Below, piece by piece: positions 3,122-25,067 of a DNA stretch of 26,326 nt. Positions within the stretch are counted from its first letter, which is position 1. The number at the start of each line of letters is the position of its first letter. A model generated the notes under the pieces. The model was not told where the DNA came from, made no database searches, and saw nothing but the letters and a program-made list of their open reading frames with translations. Source of the DNA: a virus. The DNA is taken from positions 1 through 26,326 of IMG/VR virus record IMGVR_UViG_3300021185_000086. One strand, 5' to 3'. The position numbers and the translations under genes were made by a program.

Positions 3122-3541
3122 TTATGTTGGCTTTGTAGGCCATGTTACTGTATTCGGGAAACCTGCTTGATCTGGTAGGTTTAGCAAGTCAGTTCGGTAC
3201 TGTGTCCACTCTGCTTGTTTAGCATCTGTAAGTTCAGCCCAACGTAGAGGGTTGGTTACTAGAGGGTCTACTTCTTCTGCCAACCTTTGGTTACGTTGCG
3301 CCCTTAGACTTGCCGCTAGTTCTGCATCTAGCTCTGCTTGAGTAGGTGCTACATAAACCTCGAAGTCTGTGCCTATAAGTTCAAGCAATACGCTGTTGTC
3401 TACAGTCATGTCTGTATCGTGTGGCGTTAATCCATAAGGTATCCAACCGTGTTCGGGATGGTTAATCTCTACATCAAATGCAGTATTGTCTGCGTTAAGT
3501 GATTGTGCGTTACGCACTTCTGTTATTGTTACAGTTGGCAT
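3122..3541 (-). CDS. Tail fibre chaperone / tail assembly protein (Phage_tail_APC C-terminus)
   Basis: The 139-residue product has an N-terminal beta-rich part (PTVTITEVRNAQSLNAD..., HPEHGWIPYGL), a middle part with ELDAELAASLRAQRNQRLAE, and a C-terminal Phage_tail_APC-like module ending AGFPNTVTWPTKPT. The layout resembles small tail-fibre assembly proteins that sit directly after the fibre they serve, which is its position here. An AGGAGG Shine-Dalgarno 6 bases before the ATG is the best ribosome site in the tail region. Its C-terminal module is duplicated as a separate gene at 982-1176, after the second fibre. Fibre-folding function is inferred from family and position. Confidence 0.8.
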   Translation of the reverse strand: MPTVTITEVRNAQSLNADNTAFDVEINHPEHGWIPYGLTPHDTDMTVDNSVLLELIGTDFEVYVAPTQAELDAELAASLRAQRNQRLAEEVDPLVTNPLRWAELTDAKQAEWTQYRTDLLNLPDQAGFPNTVTWPTKPT

Positions 3542-17178: not shown

Positions 17179-18741
17179 TTAATAACCGAAAGTTGGGTCG
17201 CTTGCTTGAAAACCTGAGTTAGATGTAGGATCGTAATCAAATAAACTACTTCTAGGTCTTGTCATTATTCCGTATCTTAATGCATCGTATAGGTGATCTT
17301 CAGCGTGAGTATCTACATCTTCTGGATTCTTTTTATCTAAAGGTATAGAAGGTAACTGGGATATAGTATTAGAACATGTGTTAAAGAATACTAGTCTTGG
17401 TTCTTCTGTAAACTCATCAACCTGTAGTCTTCTGTGTAATTCGTTTTTACCTGCTACACGAGATCCTTTTGATCTATCAGCTGGTCTCCACCTACATCCA
17501 CGCATTATCATTTGTTCTGCTAGAGATGGGCCAGTATCTCCACGTTTATGCCATAAAGAACTATCAAGTACACCATAACGTATTTTTTCAAACTGTTCAA
17601 CATCTAATATCATATCTGCTAAATCAGTAGCAATAACTTTAGATACATACATCTCTCGATAAACAATTAGTTGTTCATCAGGTGCTACTGCTATCCAAAC
17701 AACTCCAGTGTACGAACCATAACCATAGTCACATGCACGGAACTTAGGCCAATTATCTGGAATCTCAAAAGGTTCAACTACATGTATATGCCTATTGAAC
17801 TCTGGGAACGCAGCACCTTCATTAATGTCCCAATCACCTTCAAGAAGTTGTCTACGCTGATGCTCAGGTAACGACAATAGATTGGCTTCATACATACCAT
17901 CATCAGCTAAGTAGGGATTATCAAACAAAGTTGCAGGTATAAACCTACGTTTGAATAAGGGTTCACCTTCTTTACTGTGACCTTTAGGCCATTCAATTAC
18001 ATTACCTGTTTCAGGATCTGTAGCCCAGAAAGCCTTATTAGGTACTTCAGGATCAATAAAAGTCTTCTTCACCCATTGATGACCTGGGCCACCTGGGTTG
18101 GATGTTGCTCTCATGTGGAGAGGTAAACCCGATTGTTTAGTTGTACGTAACCTTGAACGCATATAGTTCCAAGGATATGGGGTAGGCCACTGTGTCATCT
18201 CGTCAAAGCCAATCCAATTAAAGGCCTGACCTTGGTATCTCATTACATCATCATCTCTATCTAAGTATGACATCCATAATGTCGCACCTGATGGTGCAAT
18301 CCAAGTCTTATCTCGTTCCATAAACTTAATCCCAGGTATTGCCTTGGGATATAGCTGCTTTGAAACAGATATAAGCTCCCTTAACTCCTCTGTACTTCTA
18401 CGTACTAGCAACATAGTTGCATGAGGGTTGTTTAAGAAGCGCACAGGGTCTGCAATCATAGCATATGACTTGCCACCGCCAGCAGAACCACCATAAAGTA
18501 CCTCTTGTTCAGTAGATGCTAGGAAATCTGTCTGAGGGCCTTCATTAGGCTCAAAGATTATTTCCCTTATAGCCTTATCTACCTGAATTGGTGCTGGCTT
18601 TACCTGTGCTGGTGCTAGTTCCTTTGAGGACTCTTGCACCGATACGTTGTCTTTCAAGCTTTTCCGCTTTTTCTGCGGCTTTCTTGTACTTTTCTGCATA
18701 GAAGCGCTGGATTGAAGCTTCTTTCTTACGTTTTTGTTCAA
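17179..18741 (-). CDS. terL: Terminase large subunit
   Basis: The 520-residue product has both halves of a DNA-packaging motor. The ATPase shows Walker A GGSAGGGKS (residues 84-92), Walker B with D180-E181 in WIGFDE, and the coupling motif ATSNPGG (212-218). The nuclease domain shows acidic residues at D338 (RACDYGYG), D393 (GVLDSS) and D482 (EDHLYDALRYG). The assigned start is a TTG at 18741, preceded by GAGGG at 7 bases. An ATG at 18699 is possible but lacks a ribosome site. Either way the very basic N-terminus overlaps the preceding helix-turn-helix gene, by 167 bp from the TTG. It cuts concatemeric DNA and drives it through the portal. Confidence 0.96.
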   Translation of the reverse strand: MNKNVRKKLQSSASMQKSTRKPQKKRKSLKDNVSVQESSKELAPAQVKPAPIQVDKAIREIIFEPNEGPQTDFLASTEQEVLYGGSAGGGKSYAMIADPVRFLNNPHATMLLVRRSTEELRELISVSKQLYPKAIPGIKFMERDKTWIAPSGATLWMSYLDRDDDVMRYQGQAFNWIGFDEMTQWPTPYPWNYMRSRLRTTKQSGLPLHMRATSNPGGPGHQWVKKTFIDPEVPNKAFWATDPETGNVIEWPKGHSKEGEPLFKRRFIPATLFDNPYLADDGMYEANLLSLPEHQRRQLLEGDWDINEGAAFPEFNRHIHVVEPFEIPDNWPKFRACDYGYGSYTGVVWIAVAPDEQLIVYREMYVSKVIATDLADMILDVEQFEKIRYGVLDSSLWHKRGDTGPSLAEQMIMRGCRWRPADRSKGSRVAGKNELHRRLQVDEFTEEPRLVFFNTCSNTISQLPSIPLDKKNPEDVDTHAEDHLYDALRYGIMTRPRSSLFDYDPTSNSGFQASDPTFGY

Positions 18742-19018
18742 GTTTAACCCTCTGCATTAGACCCACATGAGAGATATAACGTTCTGAAGTAGTACTTAGC
18801 CAATTAGAAACCTCACGTAGGCTGTATTGCTTAAGGTACTTCTTAGCTTGCTCGAATAATTCTAACTCTTCTGGGATTGGTAACAGTATATCAGAGTCGG
18901 TGGGGTCTTGTCTATAGCCAAATGGTATAACTCTACCTACTCTTACTACTGGAAGCCAATCGTATTCGCCTTCAGTCTCTTCTGGCTTAGGTAACTGCCA
19001 AGTTTTATTAGTCTTCAT
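18575..19018 (-). CDS. Helix-turn-helix protein between terminase genes
   Basis: From the ATG at 19018 the product is 147 residues. The frame stays open upstream to a TTG at 19084, but no ribosome site supports it. After a short beta-like part (WLPVVRVGRVIPFGY, with PIPEELELFEQAKKYL) comes SLREVSNWLSTTSERYISHVGL, which reads as a helix-turn-helix. The following residues are a long charged helix (KLEQKRKKEASIQRFYAEKY...). The start overlaps the small terminase by 11 bp and the last 167 bases overlap the large terminase in another frame. The family seems common beside terminases of marine phages. A role in DNA recognition for packaging is inferred. It could be a second small-terminase-like subunit. 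Confidence 0.7.
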   Translation of the reverse strand: MKTNKTWQLPKPEETEGEYDWLPVVRVGRVIPFGYRQDPTDSDILLPIPEELELFEQAKKYLKQYSLREVSNWLSTTSERYISHVGLMQRVKLEQKRKKEASIQRFYAEKYKKAAEKAEKLERQRIGARVLKGTSTSTGKASTNSGR

Positions 19019-19373
19019 CTGATTTAGGAGGTAAAATAAACAAAGGACTCTCTGCTTTAACCTCAACCTTATCTGTTTTAACAAAGCCAGCTCTATCCAG
19101 AAGATCTTTAGCAGCTGCCATCTTCTCTTTATTGCCTAAGTCTGTTGGGTTTTCCATTACGTCTAGCATAGAGTATGCAGCTTGAGGGCCACGAGTAGCT
19201 ATAAGACTCTTTGTTCTTCCTGCAATCTCCTCTTCTAGAGTTTTCATTATACTAGCTGAAGATGTTCCTTCGGCATACCCTGCTAGCTTTATAGCTTTCA
19301 TAGCATTACCTCTGGCATCCCCAAAAAGGAATCCAAGGAACATCTCTTGCTTTTCTGTAAGGTTACGAGCCAT
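19008..19373 (-). CDS. Terminase small subunit-like protein
   Basis: The 121-residue product opens with LTEKQEMFLGFLFGDARGNAMKAIKLAGYAEG. This is the LT.KQ..F......A..AGY helix-turn-helix pattern of small terminase subunits. A helical oligomerisation part follows (AAYSMLDVMENPTDLGNKEKMAAAKDLLDRAGF), then a short tail. It recognises phage DNA and loads the large terminase. It has a GGAG ribosome site in the overlap with DUF1127 upstream and overlaps the next gene by 11 bp. Assignment rests on these motifs and position. Confidence 0.82.
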   Translation of the reverse strand: MARNLTEKQEMFLGFLFGDARGNAMKAIKLAGYAEGTSSASIMKTLEEEIAGRTKSLIATRGPQAAYSMLDVMENPTDLGNKEKMAAAKDLLDRAGFVKTDKVEVKAESPLFILPPKSDED

Positions 19374-19632: not shown

Positions 19633-19995
19633 TTAACGTGTTGGATTATAAAACTCTTTACAAGATATTAGCACTTCCATAGTATTAGTTGTCTCACCAT
19701 ATGCAACAATCTTATCCCCTGCATGAAGGTGTAATACACCAGCACCAAATATATTCTCTGCTGAGTTACCTGCTATAGTATGGTTCTTAAGTACGTAATG
19801 ATAAGTAGTATCATCTTGGTGATAGAACTGCAGATAAACTTTTTTAGAAGAGTTATTGTTATTAGCTACGTGTAGTAAGTCCACTGTTGCATCATGAAAT
19901 GGTGGACAAGTATACACAAGAGTAGCGTTAGCACCTGTAGTAGTAGATGCTACCGTTACTGCTTCTGTAGCTGTGGAGTAAGTTGTTTCAACCAT
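19633..19995 (-). CDS. Beta-rich probable structural protein, unknown function
   Basis: The 120-residue product is Thr/Ala/Asn-rich with alternating beta-type strands (TEAVTVASTTTGANATLVYTC, KVYLQFYHQDDT, HLHAGDKIVAYGET). It has no signal peptide or membrane segment. The look is that of a small beta-sandwich such as a capsid decoration or head-fibre protein, and marine phage genomes often have similar small proteins among structural genes. It abuts the repeat protein upstream with no gap and ends just before the terminase promoter. The function is not established. Confidence 0.6.
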   Translation of the reverse strand: MVETTYSTATEAVTVASTTTGANATLVYTCPPFHDATVDLLHVANNNNSSKKVYLQFYHQDDTTYHYVLKNHTIAGNSAENIFGAGVLHLHAGDKIVAYGETTNTMEVLISCKEFYNPTR

Positions 19996-21045
19996 TTATT
20001 TGTATTTGCCTTTTACACCAAACTTTTTCTTATGTTCAGCAATAGACTCTTCTTTAACACGAGTAGTATAAAGTTTATCTTTAAAAGTAAATGTTGCTTT
20101 ATTAGCTTTACGGTTACGTTTAAATACTGCACCAAATGATTCATCACTAACTGGGCCAGCAGCTGGTTTATTTAAGTTAATACCTTTACCTTTTTCTATT
20201 TCAGTCTTAGAAACTCTAGCTCTAGGGCTTGGTTTAACTTCAACATCACCTTTTTTGACTTTCTTTTTACCGCCAAGAGCCATTATTGCTCCAGCAACAC
20301 CAGAACCTAATCCTACTATTAACGGGAGATTAGATTGCTTACCTTTTGAAGTAGAAGTTTTGGAAGTTTTAGAACCTGGCTTAGTAGGTTTAGCACCTTT
20401 ACCTTTAGAGTTAGAAGTCTTCGAAGTAGAGGAAGGCTTAGGAGCTGCATTAGCTTTAGAACCTTTATTATTAGAAGTCTTAGAGTTCTTAGCAAGAGGT
20501 TTAACAGGTTTAGCATTAGCTCCTTTATTCGTAGAAGTCTTTGAAGTAGTAGATGGCTTAGGTGCTGCATTTGCCTTAGATCCTTTACTGTTAGAAGTCT
20601 TTGAAGTTTTTGAGGGTGGTTTAGTAGGTTTAGCTCCTGCGCCTTTATTATTAGAAGTCTTAGAGTTCTTAGCTAAAGGTTTACTAGGTTTAGAACCTGC
20701 ACCTTTATTATCAGAAGTCTTAGAATTTTTACTTAAAGGCTTACTAGGTTTAGCTCCAGCTCCTTTATTATTAGAGGTCTTAGAGTTTTTACTTAAAGGT
20801 TTTGGTAATTTAGCACCTTTACCTTTAACATTAGCTGTTCTAGAATTTTTAATTAAACCTGCAACATTACCTGGAGTAGCATTTTTAATTACACCACCTG
20901 TGCGTTTTTTTGCTATTTGTTTAGCAGCATTTTCTGAGACTTTACGTGCTCCTGCAGCTATAAGTTTTTTACCCTGTGTTTTTATTATTGCACGTACTAC
21001 TATGTTACCTAAAACATATAATCCGTATCCTATCGGTACTGGCAT
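19996..21045 (-). CDS. Lysine-rich protein with nine 20-residue repeats and a membrane segment
   Basis: The 349-residue product has four parts. Residues 1-63 are amphipathic with a hydrophobic start (YGLYVLGNIVVRAII). Residues 64-236 hold nine tandem repeats of exactly 20 residues, roughly LSKNSKTSNNKGAGAKPSKP, very rich in Lys, Ser, Asn and Pro. Residues 239-259 are a Gly-rich hydrophobic segment (PLIVGLGSGVAGAIMALG). The C-terminus (SFGAVFKRNRKANKATFTF) ends in a short motif, F..AF...R....TF...LYTT, that recurs in many phage virion proteins. The repeats resemble histone H1-like tails, so DNA binding is plausible. It could be a virion or ejected protein. The upstream basic genes support a shared role. 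Confidence 0.7.
   Translation of the reverse strand: MPVPIGYGLYVLGNIVVRAIIKTQGKKLIAAGARKVSENAAKQIAKKRTGGVIKNATPGNVAGLIKNSRTANVKGKGAKLPKPLSKNSKTSNNKGAGAKPSKPLSKNSKTSDNKGAGSKPSKPLAKNSKTSNNKGAGAKPTKPPSKTSKTSNSKGSKANAAPKPSTTSKTSTNKGANAKPVKPLAKNSKTSNNKGSKANAAPKPSSTSKTSNSKGKGAKPTKPGSKTSKTSTSKGKQSNLPLIVGLGSGVAGAIMALGGKKKVKKGDVEVKPSPRARVSKTEIEKGKGINLNKPAAGPVSDESFGAVFKRNRKANKATFTFKDKLYTTRVKEESIAEHKKKFGVKGKYK
20338..20856 (-). repeat. Nine 60-bp in-frame tandem repeats
   Basis: The SKT (or SRT) motif ends at residues 70, 90, 110, 130, 150, 170, 190, 210 and 230 of the host protein. The period is thus exactly 60 bp with no insertion or deletion. Two variants alternate in the second half: GAGAKPSKP-type and GSKANAAPKP-type units. 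The pattern points to past duplication and conversion between units. Confidence 0.88.
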
Positions 21046-21049
21046 TTAT

Positions 21050-21508
21050 CTATTTCCCTGTATAAGATGCACCGCATTTAGCCATGCCACCTTTGTTATA
21101 ACCCATTTTCTTAGCTACCTTAGGTGCAGCTTTTTTCAAAGCTTTCATACCCTTATTAGGTTTAGCCATACCACCGTGCATATACCCAGATTTTTTCTTC
21201 ATATCTGAATCCTTCATCATTGTGCCGTCAGGCATTTTGTGATAACCTTTTTTCATAGTCAGTCCGCCTTTCGAAGCTCTAAACTTTTTAGTTTTCTCTG
21301 CAATTTTCTTTGGTTGTTTTACAAATTGTTTTCCTGCTGCTGTGCCTTTGCGTTTAGCTGCACTAGTAGCTGCATATTCTGCTGGGGTTAAGGCTTCTCT
21401 TGCTTTTTTAGGGAGATAACGTTCTCCTGTTTTAGCACTAGGCTTACCGCTTTTAGTTCCCCATTTTTCTTTAGTCCACTTCTTAAGTGACTTCTGAGAA
21501 GCTTTCAT
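21050..21508 (-). CDS. Very basic conserved phage protein with GGMAK motifs
   Basis: The 152-residue product is highly lysine-rich. Its N-terminal half (KKWTKEKWGTKSGKPSAKTG, ERYLPKKAREALTPAEYAAT) resembles a small basic family I recall from marine phages and large viruses, possibly DUF5872. The C-terminal half has repeated short units: GYHKMPDGTMMKDSDM, YMHGGMAKPNKG and YNKGGMAK. No membrane segment or enzyme motif is visible. The gene is coupled to its neighbour upstream by a 4-bp overlap. DNA binding or virion packing is inferred from charge. Confidence 0.68.
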   Translation of the reverse strand: MKASQKSLKKWTKEKWGTKSGKPSAKTGERYLPKKAREALTPAEYAATSAAKRKGTAAGKQFVKQPKKIAEKTKKFRASKGGLTMKKGYHKMPDGTMMKDSDMKKKSGYMHGGMAKPNKGMKALKKAAPKVAKKMGYNKGGMAKCGASYTGK

Positions 21509-21690
21509 GTCTTCCTATAACCTCCACCAGCTTTTTTATACTGTAGGGCTAGCATCTGTGCCTTACGTGCAGACCACTGACCTGCTTTACCACCCTTAGT
21601 ACCTGCTTTAATCTTACTGAATAATCTCTTACGTAATGCAGGTTTTGTATAGTTACCTGCTTCGTTTACTTTTGATCTAGGTTTAGCCAT
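21505..21690 (-). CDS. Small basic protein, unknown function
   Basis: The 61-residue product (MAKPRSKVNEAGNYTKP...) has the conserved-looking ending GQWSARKAQMLALQYKKAGG. Similar short proteins occur in marine phages next to other basic proteins. I chose the ATG at 21690, which overlaps the upstream stop as TAATG, over a GTG two codons earlier. It shares 4 bp with the next gene. The tight coupling with its neighbours suggests joint action, perhaps on DNA. Confidence 0.65.
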   Translation of the reverse strand: MAKPRSKVNEAGNYTKPALRKRLFSKIKAGTKGGKAGQWSARKAQMLALQYKKAGGGYRKT

Positions 21691-21986
21691 TACCACTTAA
21701 CCTTATCTGCCCAATAGGCTGCTGACATTTTACCCTTCTTAATATTCTTGGCATGTCTAGACTTAAATGATTTTCTTTTCTTCTTCATCTTATCAGATTC
21801 ACCAGACTTAGGTTTACCTGCTGTAGACGCACCCTGCTCACCGAAACGAATAACTTTATACTTGCCACCCTCTGATGCCATAACGACATGAGACTTAGTA
21901 GCATGATCAGGAGTACGCTTAGGTTTATTTACGCCTTTAAGACCAAGGCGTTTCATAGCTGCTTTGACTCGATCAGGAACTGCCAT
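21690..21986 (-). CDS. Basic protein with FKSRHAKNI..GKMSAAYWADKVKW end
   Basis: The 98-residue product starts MAVPDRVKAAMKRLGLKGVNKPKRT, then has a beta-like part (HVVMASEGGKYKVIRFGEQGAST) and a very basic end (KKKRKSFKSRHAKNIKKGKM). The C-terminal SAAYWADKVKW motif is shared by a conserved hypothetical family in marine phages that I recognise but cannot name. The gene overlaps the endolysin stop by 1 bp and the next gene by 1 bp. Function unknown; nucleic-acid binding is plausible from charge. Confidence 0.68.
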   Translation of the reverse strand: MAVPDRVKAAMKRLGLKGVNKPKRTPDHATKSHVVMASEGGKYKVIRFGEQGASTAGKPKSGESDKMKKKRKSFKSRHAKNIKKGKMSAAYWADKVKW

Positions 21987-22495
21987 TATATCATACTCAA
22001 TGCTTGTTCTAGTGTTTCTTTGTTTCGCCTAGTCCAACCACGACCAAATGTTTTAAAAGTATCTAAGCCTTCATAGAAGCCTTGACGAACAGTATATACG
22101 TAGTCCACAATAAACTTAGGATCTTTCTCCAGGATAAGACCTAGTGTCTGTGGCCCGATTGCTCCATCGGCTGTAGCTCCTACTGCACGTTGAATAGCTT
22201 TAGCTGGACGACCAGAACCTGAGTTCACAGCCCAGTCAAACGCACACCAGTCTACACCAGATGGTAGATGATCACCTTTAACTCTATCCCAGTAATTCTT
22301 TTTGTAGATTGGCCCGACATCTGCTGGAGTTAGATCTCTCATCTCCTGCTCGGTAGATTCCCTGCCGATCCATTCATCATACACTCTTTTAGTAACACCG
22401 AGGTTAGTCATACCGCCTGGGTCACTAGGATGATTAACGTATCCACCTTCATGGTGTAATAACATCTCTAGACATTTATCAAAATTGTTTTTCAT
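21986..22495 (-). CDS. Endolysin, GH108-family muramidase with C-terminal peptidoglycan-binding domain
   Basis: The 169-residue product has the GH108 start LLHHEGGYVNHPSDPGG with the catalytic Glu at residue 16, then TNLGVTKRVYDEW. The C-terminal half (DWAVNSGSGRPAKAIQRAVG, ADGAIGPQTLG) matches the PG_binding_3 domain usually paired with GH108. It cleaves the glycan strands of peptidoglycan for host lysis. There is no signal peptide, so export needs the adjacent holin-like protein. It begins 1 bp inside the holin stop codon. Confidence 0.92.
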   Translation of the reverse strand: MKNNFDKCLEMLLHHEGGYVNHPSDPGGMTNLGVTKRVYDEWIGRESTEQEMRDLTPADVGPIYKKNYWDRVKGDHLPSGVDWCAFDWAVNSGSGRPAKAIQRAVGATADGAIGPQTLGLILEKDPKFIVDYVYTVRQGFYEGLDTFKTFGRGWTRRNKETLEQALSMI

Positions 22496-22851
22496 TATTT
22501 CTTCCCGAAGTATTTACTTACACCACGCATACCAATGCTGGCACTTACAATTCCACCTAGTGAGTACTGATACCAATCAGGCATAACCTCTAAAGCAGTA
22601 AACCCTGCTTGTACTATTTGATTACCCCAATCACCACAGAAGGCTAGGATCAATGGTATTGAGAATAGTAAAGTAATCCATTCGTCTTTCCACGAGTTCT
22701 CTGTAGCCTTCATAGCTGCTAGATCCCAATCAAGTTCTCCAGTAGCTATCTTCATCTTTGTTTCAGCTTCAGCCTTCTTCACAGCTGTCTTGCCTTCGAT
22801 CATTGTACCAGCTAGATTAGCTACTTGACCGATTAAGTTTAATCCAAGCAT
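22495..22851 (-). CDS. Holin-like membrane protein (GTA_holin_3TM type)
   Basis: The 118-residue product contains GTMIEGKTAVKKAEAETKMK, ATGELDWDLAAMKATENSWKDEW, then a hydrophobic segment at about 59-73 (ITLLFSIPLILAFCG), another weakly hydrophobic stretch near 80-90, and a third at 98-109. The charged lead-in and the W-K-D-E-W helix before the first membrane segment resemble the three-segment holin of gene transfer agents. It lies directly before the endolysin and overlaps it by 1 bp, the usual lysis pair. It would open the inner membrane for muramidase release. Confidence 0.8.
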   Translation of the reverse strand: MLGLNLIGQVANLAGTMIEGKTAVKKAEAETKMKIATGELDWDLAAMKATENSWKDEWITLLFSIPLILAFCGDWGNQIVQAGFTALEVMPDWYQYSLGGIVSASIGMRGVSKYFGKK

Positions 22852-23180
22852 TATCCGTTGTTACCTTTCACTTCTTTCTTGCTCATGTTAGTGACTCCAA
22901 AGAATACACCAACTATACCAGCAACTGATAGAAAATAAATAGAAGCCATAGAACCTATGATATCAGCTGCTTTATCTGCACCGATCATAGAACACAATAG
23001 AACAAGGAATGGATATGCTAGCATTCCTGCTAAACAAAACCATGCCATTCTTCTTTGAGCATCACGTTGTGCATCTTCATCATCTAATCGTCTACGTCGA
23101 TCTTCTAATGCTAATGCATCCCATTCAGTCTTATCAATAGATCCACTGTTGTCTACATCTACTTCTTCAAAACTTGTCAT
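22851..23180 (-). CDS. EF-hand protein with two membrane segments
   Basis: The 109-residue product starts with DVDNSGSIDKTE at residues 8-19. This is a canonical 12-residue calcium loop: Asp at positions 1, 3 and 9, Ser at 5, Gly at 6, Ile at 8 and Glu at 12. An arginine-rich helix follows (ALEDRRRRLDDEDAQRDAQRR). Two membrane segments then lie at about 46-65 and 73-97, with a charged tail. It is coupled to the holin (1-bp overlap) and to the upstream gene (4-bp overlap). It could be an antiholin, holin accessory or calcium-responsive membrane protein. No function is proven for this family as far as I know. Confidence 0.75.
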   Translation of the reverse strand: MTSFEEVDVDNSGSIDKTEWDALALEDRRRRLDDEDAQRDAQRRMAWFCLAGMLAYPFLVLLCSMIGADKAADIIGSMASIYFLSVAGIVGVFFGVTNMSKKEVKGNNG

Positions 23181-23431: not shown

Positions 23432-23436
23432 GACTA

Positions 23437-23464
23437 GTTATACCTTTTAGGAAGCCTCTGTCAA
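23437..23464 (-). promoter_or_regulatory. Sigma70-like promoter next to the first leftward gene
   Basis: On the minus strand TTGACA (23459-23464) and TATAAC (23437-23442) are 16 bases apart, identical in boxes and spacing to the capsid promoter at 11948-11975. The -10 box ends 5 bases before the ATG of the 23431 gene, so transcripts would start at or inside the start codon. Confidence 0.6.
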
Positions 23465-23550
23465 CAACTAAAGTTGGTACGACAGATAATTGTACATCTA
23501 TTAAGAATCCTTATCGTTACTAGTATAGAGTAAGTATAACATTATGAGGG

Positions 23551-23738
23551 TACTTTAGGTGTACTTTAAGTATTACTTAAGTATTAATTATTAATATTAA
23601 TAATAGATTAAGTTACTTTAAGTAACTCTAAGAATACTTTAAGTATATTATATCACATTATTAAACTAAGTCAATGGACAAATTGAAGCACATTAAAGTA
23701 TTTCTTGAGCTACTTACTTAAAGTAACCTAAAGAATAC
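23551..23738. repeat. TACTTTAAGTA repeat cluster around the main leftward promoter
   Basis: The 11-mer TACTTTAAGTA occurs at 23562-23572, 23614-23624 and 23635-23645, and inverted at 23715-23725. Looser copies lie at 23551-23561 and 23573-23583. A longer 25-bp near-repeat (23613-23637 and 23714-23738) matches at 21 of 25 positions. The sites flank and overlap the predicted start of the 23647-23674 promoter, as expected for operators or for initiator-binding iterons. Confidence 0.75.
23647..23674 (-). promoter_or_regulatory. Strong sigma70-like promoter for the leftward block
   Basis: On the minus strand TTGACT (23669-23674) is followed after 16 bases by a perfect TATAAT (23647-23652). A TG one base before the -10 box makes it an extended -10. 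Predicted start is near 23640, inside a TACTTTAAGTA repeat. The leader to the first gene would be about 210 bases. This is the best promoter in the window and probably drives the lysis and structural block. Confidence 0.75.
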
Positions 23739-23843
23739 CTAACGGCGGCGGACTAGGTATAAATACCTAATGAGAAGCTCAACGTAGCTCACTGAGGGGT
23801 TGTCTTCTGTCGTCAGGTTAAGATATACCCCAGGCATACCTAA
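23735..23843. repeat. ATACCTAA repeats with an inverted copy
   Basis: ATACCTAA lies at 23735-23742, 23763-23770 and 23836-23843. An inverted TAGGTAT lies at 23754-23760, forming a 7-bp dyad with the first copy around a GC-rich centre, and a close palindrome (AGGTATAAATACCT) with the second. The third copy sits at the -35 position of a plus-strand TATAAT (23862-23867). An operator role is inferred. Confidence 0.6.
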
Positions 23844-23891
23844 AGCCTCTCTACGGGGCTGTATAATGTATTAACATAATAAGGAAGATAA

Positions 23892-23966
23892 TGGGGTAAC
23901 ATTATCACCAATATCTATATAATGATAAGGAGATTAAGTATTACCCCAGTTTCAGGGATAATGTTA
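23892..23966. repeat. Two overlapping inverted repeats
   Basis: TGGGGTAA (23892-23899) pairs with TTACCCCA (23941-23948). TAACATTATC (23897-23906) pairs with GATAATGTTA (23957-23966). The left arms share three bases, so in RNA the two stems compete. The right arm overlaps an extended -10 box on the plus strand (TGTTATAAT, 23962-23970). Confidence 0.6.
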
Positions 23967-24046
23967 TAATATAACGTATTTACATAATGTAGTTAACAGC
24001 TTTAAAAATACCCCCCGCTGTCATTGGCTGTATATACGTACGTACA

Positions 24047-24073
24047 CCCCCCGTCTGCCCCATGTCCCCTCCC
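24047..24073 (-). other. G-quadruplex motif
   Basis: Read on the minus strand there are four G-tracts (3, 4, 4 and 6 G) with loops of 1, 4 and 5 bases, a canonical quadruplex pattern. Another run of six G lies at 24011-24016. A TACGTACGTA palindrome (24035-24044) sits between the two. The surroundings are AT-rich, so the tract stands out. Confidence 0.7.
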
Positions 24074-24256
24074 TTTTGTTCCCGTTCTGTTCTTATTAGA
24101 TAATTATTATGATTATTCTCTAGCTAACCTATTGAAATCATTACATTATTTATACAATTAGAGATTATCAAATGTAGATTTATTATGAAATATGTTATGT
24201 TATACTATAACACTCTGCAACCAAAAGATTTATGTTTAATACCATACCATCTATTT

Positions 24257-24339
24257 AGTTCAATATTAAACCATATCCCCTAGTAAATCATCAAGATAGT
24301 TTAATGCTAAACCATAAAGTAGTTCAACATTAAACTAAT
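24257..24339. repeat. Three dyad-symmetric sites GTTYAAN2TTAAAC
   Basis: Three related 19-bp copies start at 24257, 24298 and 24321 (AGTTCAATATTAAACCATA, AGTTTAATGCTAAACCATA, AGTTCAACATTAAACTAAT). Each contains an imperfect 14-bp palindrome of the GTTTAA..TTAAAC form. The sites look like binding sites for a dimeric regulator or a replication initiator. Confidence 0.7.
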
Positions 24340-24759
24340 TATAATCTTTAATACATAATCTATAATATATAAATAAATATTGAATTTGTTTTCCTTTGTT
24401 TTCAATAGGTTACAAGAAATATTATAAAAATATTACAAAATATACAAATTTCTTGTTGATTTATTAAATTATATCATTATTTTGATATTTAGAAATTGAT
24501 TATAAGTATTTTCGGAGTGAGATTATATTTTAGATTTTAGTAGTTTTTTAACTATGTGCTATTTTAAATAGGTTCTAGTTTTTTACGAGTTTTATTTACT
24601 TTAGGTAAAACGAAATAAAAGACATGTTGAAAAAAGAACCATCTTTTTATTTTCGGGTTGGATAAAAAGACGCATATCAATGCACCATTCAAATCAATTC
24701 CCTTAATAGGTACAAGGTCTAGCAATCCAAATACTTATTATGTTCCGAATAAAGTAAAC

Positions 24760-24779
24760 GAACGTAGTTTTATACGTTC
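24760..24779 (+). other. Short perfect hairpin
   Basis: GAACGTA (24760-24766) and TACGTTC (24773-24779) form a 7-bp stem with a 6-base loop. No T-run follows. It may be part of an untranslated leader or small RNA, or may be meaningless. Confidence 0.4.
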
Positions 24780-24979
24780 CTATTTATATAAAAGGGAAAG
24801 CCCAAAGAGGTAAATAATTTATATAGCTATAGTTGGTAAAGGTATTAGACGACAGTCTTTCTTGATTGAACAAAATTAAAGATATTGATAGCAACTAGTA
24901 ATAAAATTTCAATCGGTTCTGCTAATTGGTTTTATTAATAAGAGATATAAAAAGAAATATTAAAAATTATTAATCAGTT

Positions 24980-25010
24980 ATGACAGCGGTTTCAATTAGG
25001 CCGCTGTTAT
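24980..25010 (+). promoter_or_regulatory. Leader hairpin before the 25068 gene
   Basis: ATGACAGCGG (24980-24989) pairs with CCGCTGTTAT (25001-25010) over 10 bp with one G-U pair and an 11-base loop. It lies 58 bases before the ATG. It is the strongest stem in the region but lacks a T-run, so a leader structure is likelier than a terminator. Confidence 0.55.
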
Positions 25011-25067
25011 TGATGTTTAATGATAGCATTAAGCAAAATGAAATAATATAAAAAGGAAAGAAATATT

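Follow-up and report, generated by a model that had tools for sequence, protein, structure and literature searches.

The gene and its genomic setting

What does a strongly basic, repeat-bearing protein encoded beside the terminase genes contribute to a marine phage, and which of its parts matter? The gene lies in a 26,326-base virus record of an HMO-2011-type marine phage (the window, meaning the whole stretch of DNA analysed), whose terminase large subunit shares 80% identity with its counterpart in Roseobacter phage CRP-13 and is next closest to those of CRP-9, CRP-2, CRP-1, and HMO-2011. The original prediction described an H1-like protein with nine exact 20-residue repeats and a membrane segment, which could condense DNA in the capsid or line an ejection path.

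The open reading frame (ORF) runs uninterrupted from ATG to stop on the minus strand, and its 349-residue product contains 73 lysines, 9 arginines, 4 aspartates, and 8 glutamates. It is under genuine coding selection, because the third codon positions are the most variable among the repeat units (249/240/357 for the three positions) and the C-terminal 57 residues have dN/dS values of only 0.04–0.12 against relatives within the clade. We took an antisense ORF at 20255–21208 for a compositional artefact, since in most relatives the open antisense stretch is broken. The minus-strand gene order is GH108 endolysin, three small basic proteins, the 349-residue gene, a 120-residue gene, a 64-residue ORF, terminase small subunit, a 169-residue ORF, terminase large subunit (TerL), and portal, and the protein is thus encoded in the head and packaging region, between the endolysin and terminase genes:

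21986..22495, minus strand: GH108-type endolysin (PF05838, 1.2e-30)
21690..21986, minus strand: upstream basic 98-residue protein, function unknown (phrog_7595)
21505..21696, minus strand: upstream basic 63-residue protein, function unknown (phrog_17747)
21050..21508, minus strand: upstream basic 152-residue protein, function unknown (phrog_14910)
19996..21045, minus strand: whole ORF, 349 residues, net charge +70
19633..19995, minus strand: downstream 120-residue gene in the same orientation, adjoining the ORF (weak phrog_1276 match)
19008..19373, minus strand: probable terminase small subunit
17179..18741, minus strand: terminase large subunit, HMO-2011 type

Several other features of the window were recorded. 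The run of three small basic proteins (21050–21986) recurs in many phages of the HMO-2011 type, where the combination varies as if the three were exchangeable modules. A 109-residue protein encoded immediately upstream of the lysis genes (22851–23180) has hydrophobic segments and an EF-hand-like N-terminus (PF13202, E 8.5e-5, short of the cut-off), and may be a holin-like protein linked to calcium. Downstream of tail fibre genes, the small genes at 982–1176 and 3122–3541 have almost identical C-termini (LPDQ[AS]GFPNTVTWPTKPT), which suggests a duplicated accessory gene, and about 1.6 kb between divergent gene blocks (23432–25067) contains neither ORFs of 60 or more residues nor tRNA genes.

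The repeat tract and the Gly-rich stretch

The following features span the middle of the protein:

20308..20847, minus strand: nine-anchor tract, residues 67–246, period 20 residues or 60 nucleotides, rich in K, S, T, N, P, and G, predicted disordered
20272..20328, minus strand: Gly-rich hydrophobic stretch, residues 240–258, hydropathy 1.87, confined to the repeat-bearing clade, not predicted as helix

Nine [NT]S[KR]T[SA] anchors begin at residues 67, 87, 107, 127, 147, 167, 187, 207, and 227, and all eight intervals are 20 residues, so the repeats do keep register as had been claimed; Tandem Repeats Finder independently reports periods of 60, 120, and 180 nucleotides, with scores up to 382. 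The period is exact but the copies are not, since they are 30–90% identical in protein and 45–82% in DNA, and the ninth unit (227–246, TSKTSTSKGKQSNLPLIVGL) merges with the Gly-rich stretch, leaving eight full units and one partial.

The same array is found in six relatives (L002, L003, L004, L005, L009, and the incomplete L010). Comparison of repeat number across metagenomic relatives, which the original prediction had proposed, gives 12 copies in L002, 10 in L003, nine in L009 and in the window, eight in L004, and seven in L005. This variation among close relatives, between near-identical flanks, makes a role as a length ruler unlikely. The repeat, Gly-rich, and C-terminal parts of the window gene share 85–97% DNA identity with the array-bearing relatives, and its N-terminal part is only about 58–67% identical to theirs (about 58% for L002) but 90.8% identical to that of L011. 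Since the N-terminal part is nearest to L011 and the remainder to the array-bearing relatives, the window gene is a mosaic, with recombination suggested near residue 66.

L011 is also informative in that it retains both ends of the protein (its C-terminus is 91.8% identical in DNA) and has unrelated 18-residue repeats (SRTVKTRGGKVTDPKPT) and no Gly-rich stretch. L012–L020 and CRP-13 likewise keep homology without the 20-residue repeats or the Gly-rich stretch, as do most relatives, and among 27 homologues both features are confined to one clade and so do not define the family. Relatives of this kind are what the original prediction had named as evidence that would refute it. The 20-residue repeats and the supposed membrane stretch are, on these comparisons, dispensable. 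The linker swap in L011, the repeat-free relatives, and a constraint weaker than that on the C-terminus exclude the repeats as the functional core; the most eye-catching part of the 349-residue protein is also the least conserved.

Conserved parts of the protein

What the family conserves is a C-terminal domain of about 55 residues, joined by a basic linker to a small alpha/beta region at the N-terminus. In the window protein the two terminal parts and the core motif are:

20833..21030, minus strand: N-terminal module, residues 6–71, predicted mixed alpha/beta
19999..20169, minus strand: C-terminal domain, residues 293–349, helix, beta-hairpin, helix
20059..20139, minus strand: core alpha-beta-beta motif, residues 303–329, SFGAVFKRNRKANKATFTFKDKLYTTR, found in many phage proteins

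Nearly all of the 18 columns that are invariant across 27 aligned homologues fall within the C-terminal domain, and the window protein has the invariant F..F, R, F, and K.YTTR.KEE...HKKKF. Besides the low C-terminal dN/dS given above, within-clade values are 0.12–0.17 for the Gly-rich and following region (residues 237–292), 0.29 for the N-terminal part (one comparison), and 0.33–0.5 for the repeats in comparisons with four relatives, with about 0 for the nearly identical L005. In 27 of 27 aligned homologues the charge of the linker lies between +0.12 and +0.23 per residue, and its sequence, type of repeat, and length (130–286 residues) vary.

AlphaFold2 models residues 6–71 as mixed alpha/beta (pLDDT about 80–87), roughly 73–300 as disordered, with no helix in the Gly-rich stretch (pLDDT about 40), and the C-terminus as helix, hairpin, and helix. 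The full model has no significant match among PDB folds, the N-terminal module alone matches nothing in phage records, the protein as a whole has no match in PHROGs, and Pfam and NCBIfam return only sub-threshold, unrelated matches and no histone or nucleoid-protein family.

The two proposed membrane segments correspond to hydropathy peaks (19-residue window) of 1.62 at residues 3–21 and 1.87 at 240–258, and both are borderline. A membrane helix is not favoured at the N-terminus, where the predicted fold is alpha/beta, and the 27-homologue alignment, hydropathy, and the AlphaFold2 model reveal no transmembrane segments conserved across the family. We therefore think it very improbable that the protein is a membrane-inserted pore or channel spanned by its N-terminal hydrophobic and Gly-rich segments. 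The height of the peaks and the within-clade conservation of residues 237–292 would fit such a structure, but the Gly-rich stretch is missing from L011 and the non-repeat relatives, and L013 and CRP-13 lack any strongly hydrophobic segment. What survives of the original description is the ORF, the period, and the basic composition, in which the protein does resemble H1; the exactness of the copies and an H1 identity do not, and the membrane segments are doubtful.

The C-terminal module in other phage proteins

The core helix and beta-hairpin follow the pattern F..AF..R.....F.[WF]..K.Y.T, which no model in Pfam, NCBIfam, or PHROGs recognised. The module also has no significant PDB match by sequence or by fold; a BFVD search gave a best match of E 0.015, in a list that includes the already known motif protein of uncultured phage S28-C3. 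A tblastn search with a 33-residue motif consensus found nothing, and longer motif-bearing proteins served as queries in its place; row 1 of alignment A2 is a consensus-like typed query, used for searching only and never for structure prediction. In IMG/VR at least 404 of 599 candidate stretches encode a motif relative, and a second query gave 274 of 581.

We examined 147 distinct, complete motif proteins, each with one copy of the motif, which lies in the C-terminal third in 83, the N-terminal third in 45, and the middle in 19. Grouped by the 5-mers that they share beyond the motif, they fall into 44 clusters with little similarity elsewhere. The module is, judged from these sequences, mobile among phage proteins that otherwise differ. 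Their median length is 224 residues and their median net charge +36, and 135 of the 147 have a net charge of at least +10. Among ORFs of 100–450 residues this charge is reached by 133 of 142 motif proteins versus 258 of 1146 other ORFs in the same loci, a background that includes spurious ORFs. Only three Pfam families are matched by motif proteins, none of them in more than a few of 105 members, and Phage_lysozyme2 is matched by one motif protein.

When whole records were searched with a profile, each positive genome had one copy of the motif, and HMO-2011, CRP-9, CRP-2, phiCrAss001, and crAss002 had none. One strict peptide pattern, with which 84,980 species genomes were scanned once, matched two loci, and the rarity in hosts that this implies is only indicative because of the single strict pattern.

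Two further observations concern motif proteins. Rare acidic members (L200 and L056/L059; 828–1264 residues, net charge −58 to −142) are an exception to the basic rule, and many motif proteins (L082, L090, L195, and L228) also end in a recurring motif, ADG(I/C)A.RGKT+, suggesting that small tags may be combined on one chain.

Small basic disordered proteins are common among phage head and packaging genes and mostly unnamed. More than 100 of them share this one compact, strongly constrained mini-domain, which none of the public family libraries searched contains.

Gene neighbourhoods of motif proteins

The recognised neighbours of motif genes are mainly TerL (13 of 48 downstream genes), scaffold or head assembly, major head, portal, and virion structural genes, counts that come from partly related contigs and are not independent. 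In Rhizobium autographivirids the motif protein gene lies between the portal and scaffold genes, and in S28-C3 it directly precedes TerL. The suggestion that the motif occurs in virion proteins is borne out to this extent, that it is common to proteins encoded among virion genes.

In the crAss-like phage cr107_1 the motif is in gp38, encoded directly after a long stabilization or muzzle-type gene. This protein is 63.6% identical to crAss002 gp30 over about half of the query, and gp30 follows a 'stabilization' gene, which is the position of C1 (gp45) in phiCrAss001. A gp38-family profile matches gp45 at 254–345 with 78 bits (one-sequence database), the match being a block KKPYPSV...SYPIPTKADARDALRLAGLHG that is present in crAss002 and largely absent from cr107_1, which has the helix-hairpin motif there instead; neither gp45 nor gp30 contains the motif. 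This suggests that small modules may be exchanged within a crAss-like virion cargo protein.

The motif is also present in a csAssE-Sib protein annotated as a tail lysozyme, and in two microvirus genomes it ends M15-type peptidase-like proteins. These two occurrences, together with the closeness of the window gene to an endolysin gene, could point to an envelope or lysis role, in which the helix-hairpin binds peptidoglycan or another envelope component and aids lysis or a penetration step during entry. However, nearly all motif proteins are devoid of an enzymatic domain and packaging or head genes are the commoner neighbours, and we regard this role as quite unlikely.

An accessory gene in a polymorphic slot

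A pattern search found no motif in any of the 37 nearest terminase relatives (78–97% identity, with upstream sequence), and HMO-2011, CRP-2, and CRP-9 lack a motif gene. Homologues of the 120-residue gene border a polymorphic slot in relatives. Of two relatives whose TerL is 97% identical to that of the window, L248 carries another basic protein in this slot, whose small module (KYKSISAAKKAGSLYYTDKNGK) also differs, and L250 has neither this nor the motif protein.

Two annotation points arise at related loci. The basic protein at L248:1314-1964 carries a recurring small module, YKSISAAKKAGSLYYTDKNGK, that is also found in CRP-9 gp65, and has no PHROG match. In CRP-13 (laboratory host FZCC0023; MW514247.1; L022:3967-4800) gp63 comprises only the last 131 residues of an ORF of about 277 residues, on the complement at about 50223–51056 of the record, that is homologous end-to-end with L033. 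Within the first half of this ORF, gp64 has been called on the other strand; gp63 is likely misannotated.

These absences bear on a histone-like, DNA-condensing function, by which the lysine-rich tract would neutralise phage DNA in the capsid or compact phage or host DNA in the cell. Such a function is favoured by the net charge of +70, the charge retained in the linkers of all homologues, and the three other small basic proteins encoded alongside. But condensation by the 349-residue protein must be dispensable if so many close relatives lack the gene, and an indispensable role in condensing the genome is unlikely; moreover, no histone or other DNA-binding family is matched, the linker is only 23% lysine, and the strongest constraint is on the C-terminal domain rather than the basic tract. 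We consider histone-like action unlikely.

The protein might instead act in the host cell, for example as a host-factor binder or in counter-defence, with its gene merely located in the packaging and lysis cluster. Accessory status is typical for such genes, and the slot is polymorphic, as L248 and L250 illustrate. Against a non-virion protein stand the position of the slot inside that cluster and, in other phages, motif relatives beside portal, scaffold, major head protein, and TerL genes, making this explanation rather unlikely.

A proposed function

The reading we prefer, tentatively and with a probability of roughly 0.45, is that the 349-residue protein is an accessory, late-expressed, virion-packaged basic protein of an HMO-2011-type podovirus. 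It would be assembled from interchangeable parts: a small folded N-terminal module with a clade-specific function, a tether that is flexible and positively charged, and a helix-hairpin module at the C-terminus, by which the protein may dock onto an assembly intermediate or a conserved structure of the phage. The tether would work through net positive charge and flexibility, perhaps along packaged DNA or the channel wall, independently of repeat sequence or of a fixed length, and the 20-residue array would be one form of it that is prone to expansion. The protein would most likely end up as internal cargo that exits with the genome. The analysis establishes the modular architecture, the conserved charge, the purifying selection acting on the C-terminus, where the gene lies, and that the module is mobile; late expression, a place in the virion, docking, contact with DNA, and ejection are inferred.

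A packaged tether is consistent with the constant linker charge, the low C-terminal dN/dS, and the replacement of the linker in L011 with both ends kept. Packaging in the virion is further suggested by the basic character of motif proteins and their location beside head and packaging genes, by cr107_1 gp38 at the C1 position, by the csAssE-Sib tail lysozyme, and by the Phage_lysozyme2 match. Counting against it, the crAss link consists of gene position and partial sequence similarity, with no motif in gp45 and gp30; the motif ends M15-type peptidases in microviruses, which need not be capsid cargo; and the gene is missing from many close relatives. The literature searched contains no virion proteomics for any motif protein, and the paper on CRP-13 reports none. 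The broader interpretation in the original prediction fares similarly to its description: support extends to the origin from a phage, the disordered basic tract, and the shared C-terminal motif, but the repeats and membrane segment do not define the protein.

A more general possibility, which we hold to be doubtful, is that the helix-hairpin of about 30 residues is a mobile phage 'address tag', grafted by podoviruses, crAss-like phages, cyanomyoviruses, and possibly ssDNA microviruses onto basic disordered chains and cell-wall enzymes for carriage in the particle or delivery at infection, and exchangeable with other small unnamed modules at the same gene slot or protein position. If the module is a packaging or docking tag, virion cargo would become predictable from sequence across very different phages.

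Comparison with known systems

The C-terminal domain of histone H1 is, like the basic tract, lysine-rich, of low complexity, and disordered, but it is roughly 40% lysine, compared with about 23% here, and the window protein has no globular H1 domain and no family match.

The C1 protein (gp45) of phiCrAss001 is packed inside the virion, where it was detected by mass spectrometry and cryo-EM (PMC10172136). Like cr107_1 gp38 it is a large protein encoded directly after a muzzle or stabilization-type gene, and gp38, related to gp45 through the KKPYPSV block and gene order, is basic and carries the same motif as the window protein. Both are much larger (792–842 residues), however, and gp45 lacks the motif; no whole-protein homology of the 349-residue protein to a proven cargo protein was found, the motif alone being common with gp38. 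T7 gp6.7 and gp7.3 are small ejected virion proteins, partly resolved by cryo-EM, in the head or tail channel (PMC11784390). They are shorter (88 and 99 residues) and the resemblance is one of type, not homology, but as small accessory virion proteins of a podovirus they provide a precedent for the ejection proposed here.

In Rhizobium phage RHEph01 gp034 and its relatives (Autographiviridae) the motif is at the N-terminus and the remainder of the protein is unrelated, yet it too is part of a small basic protein, rich in proline, alanine, and lysine, encoded in the portal-scaffold interval. CRP-13 gp63, in spite of its shortened GenBank gene and its lack of the 20-residue repeats and Gly-rich stretch, is a true homologue in an isolate, with a C-terminal domain 71.7% identical to that of the window protein and the same slot before the terminase genes.
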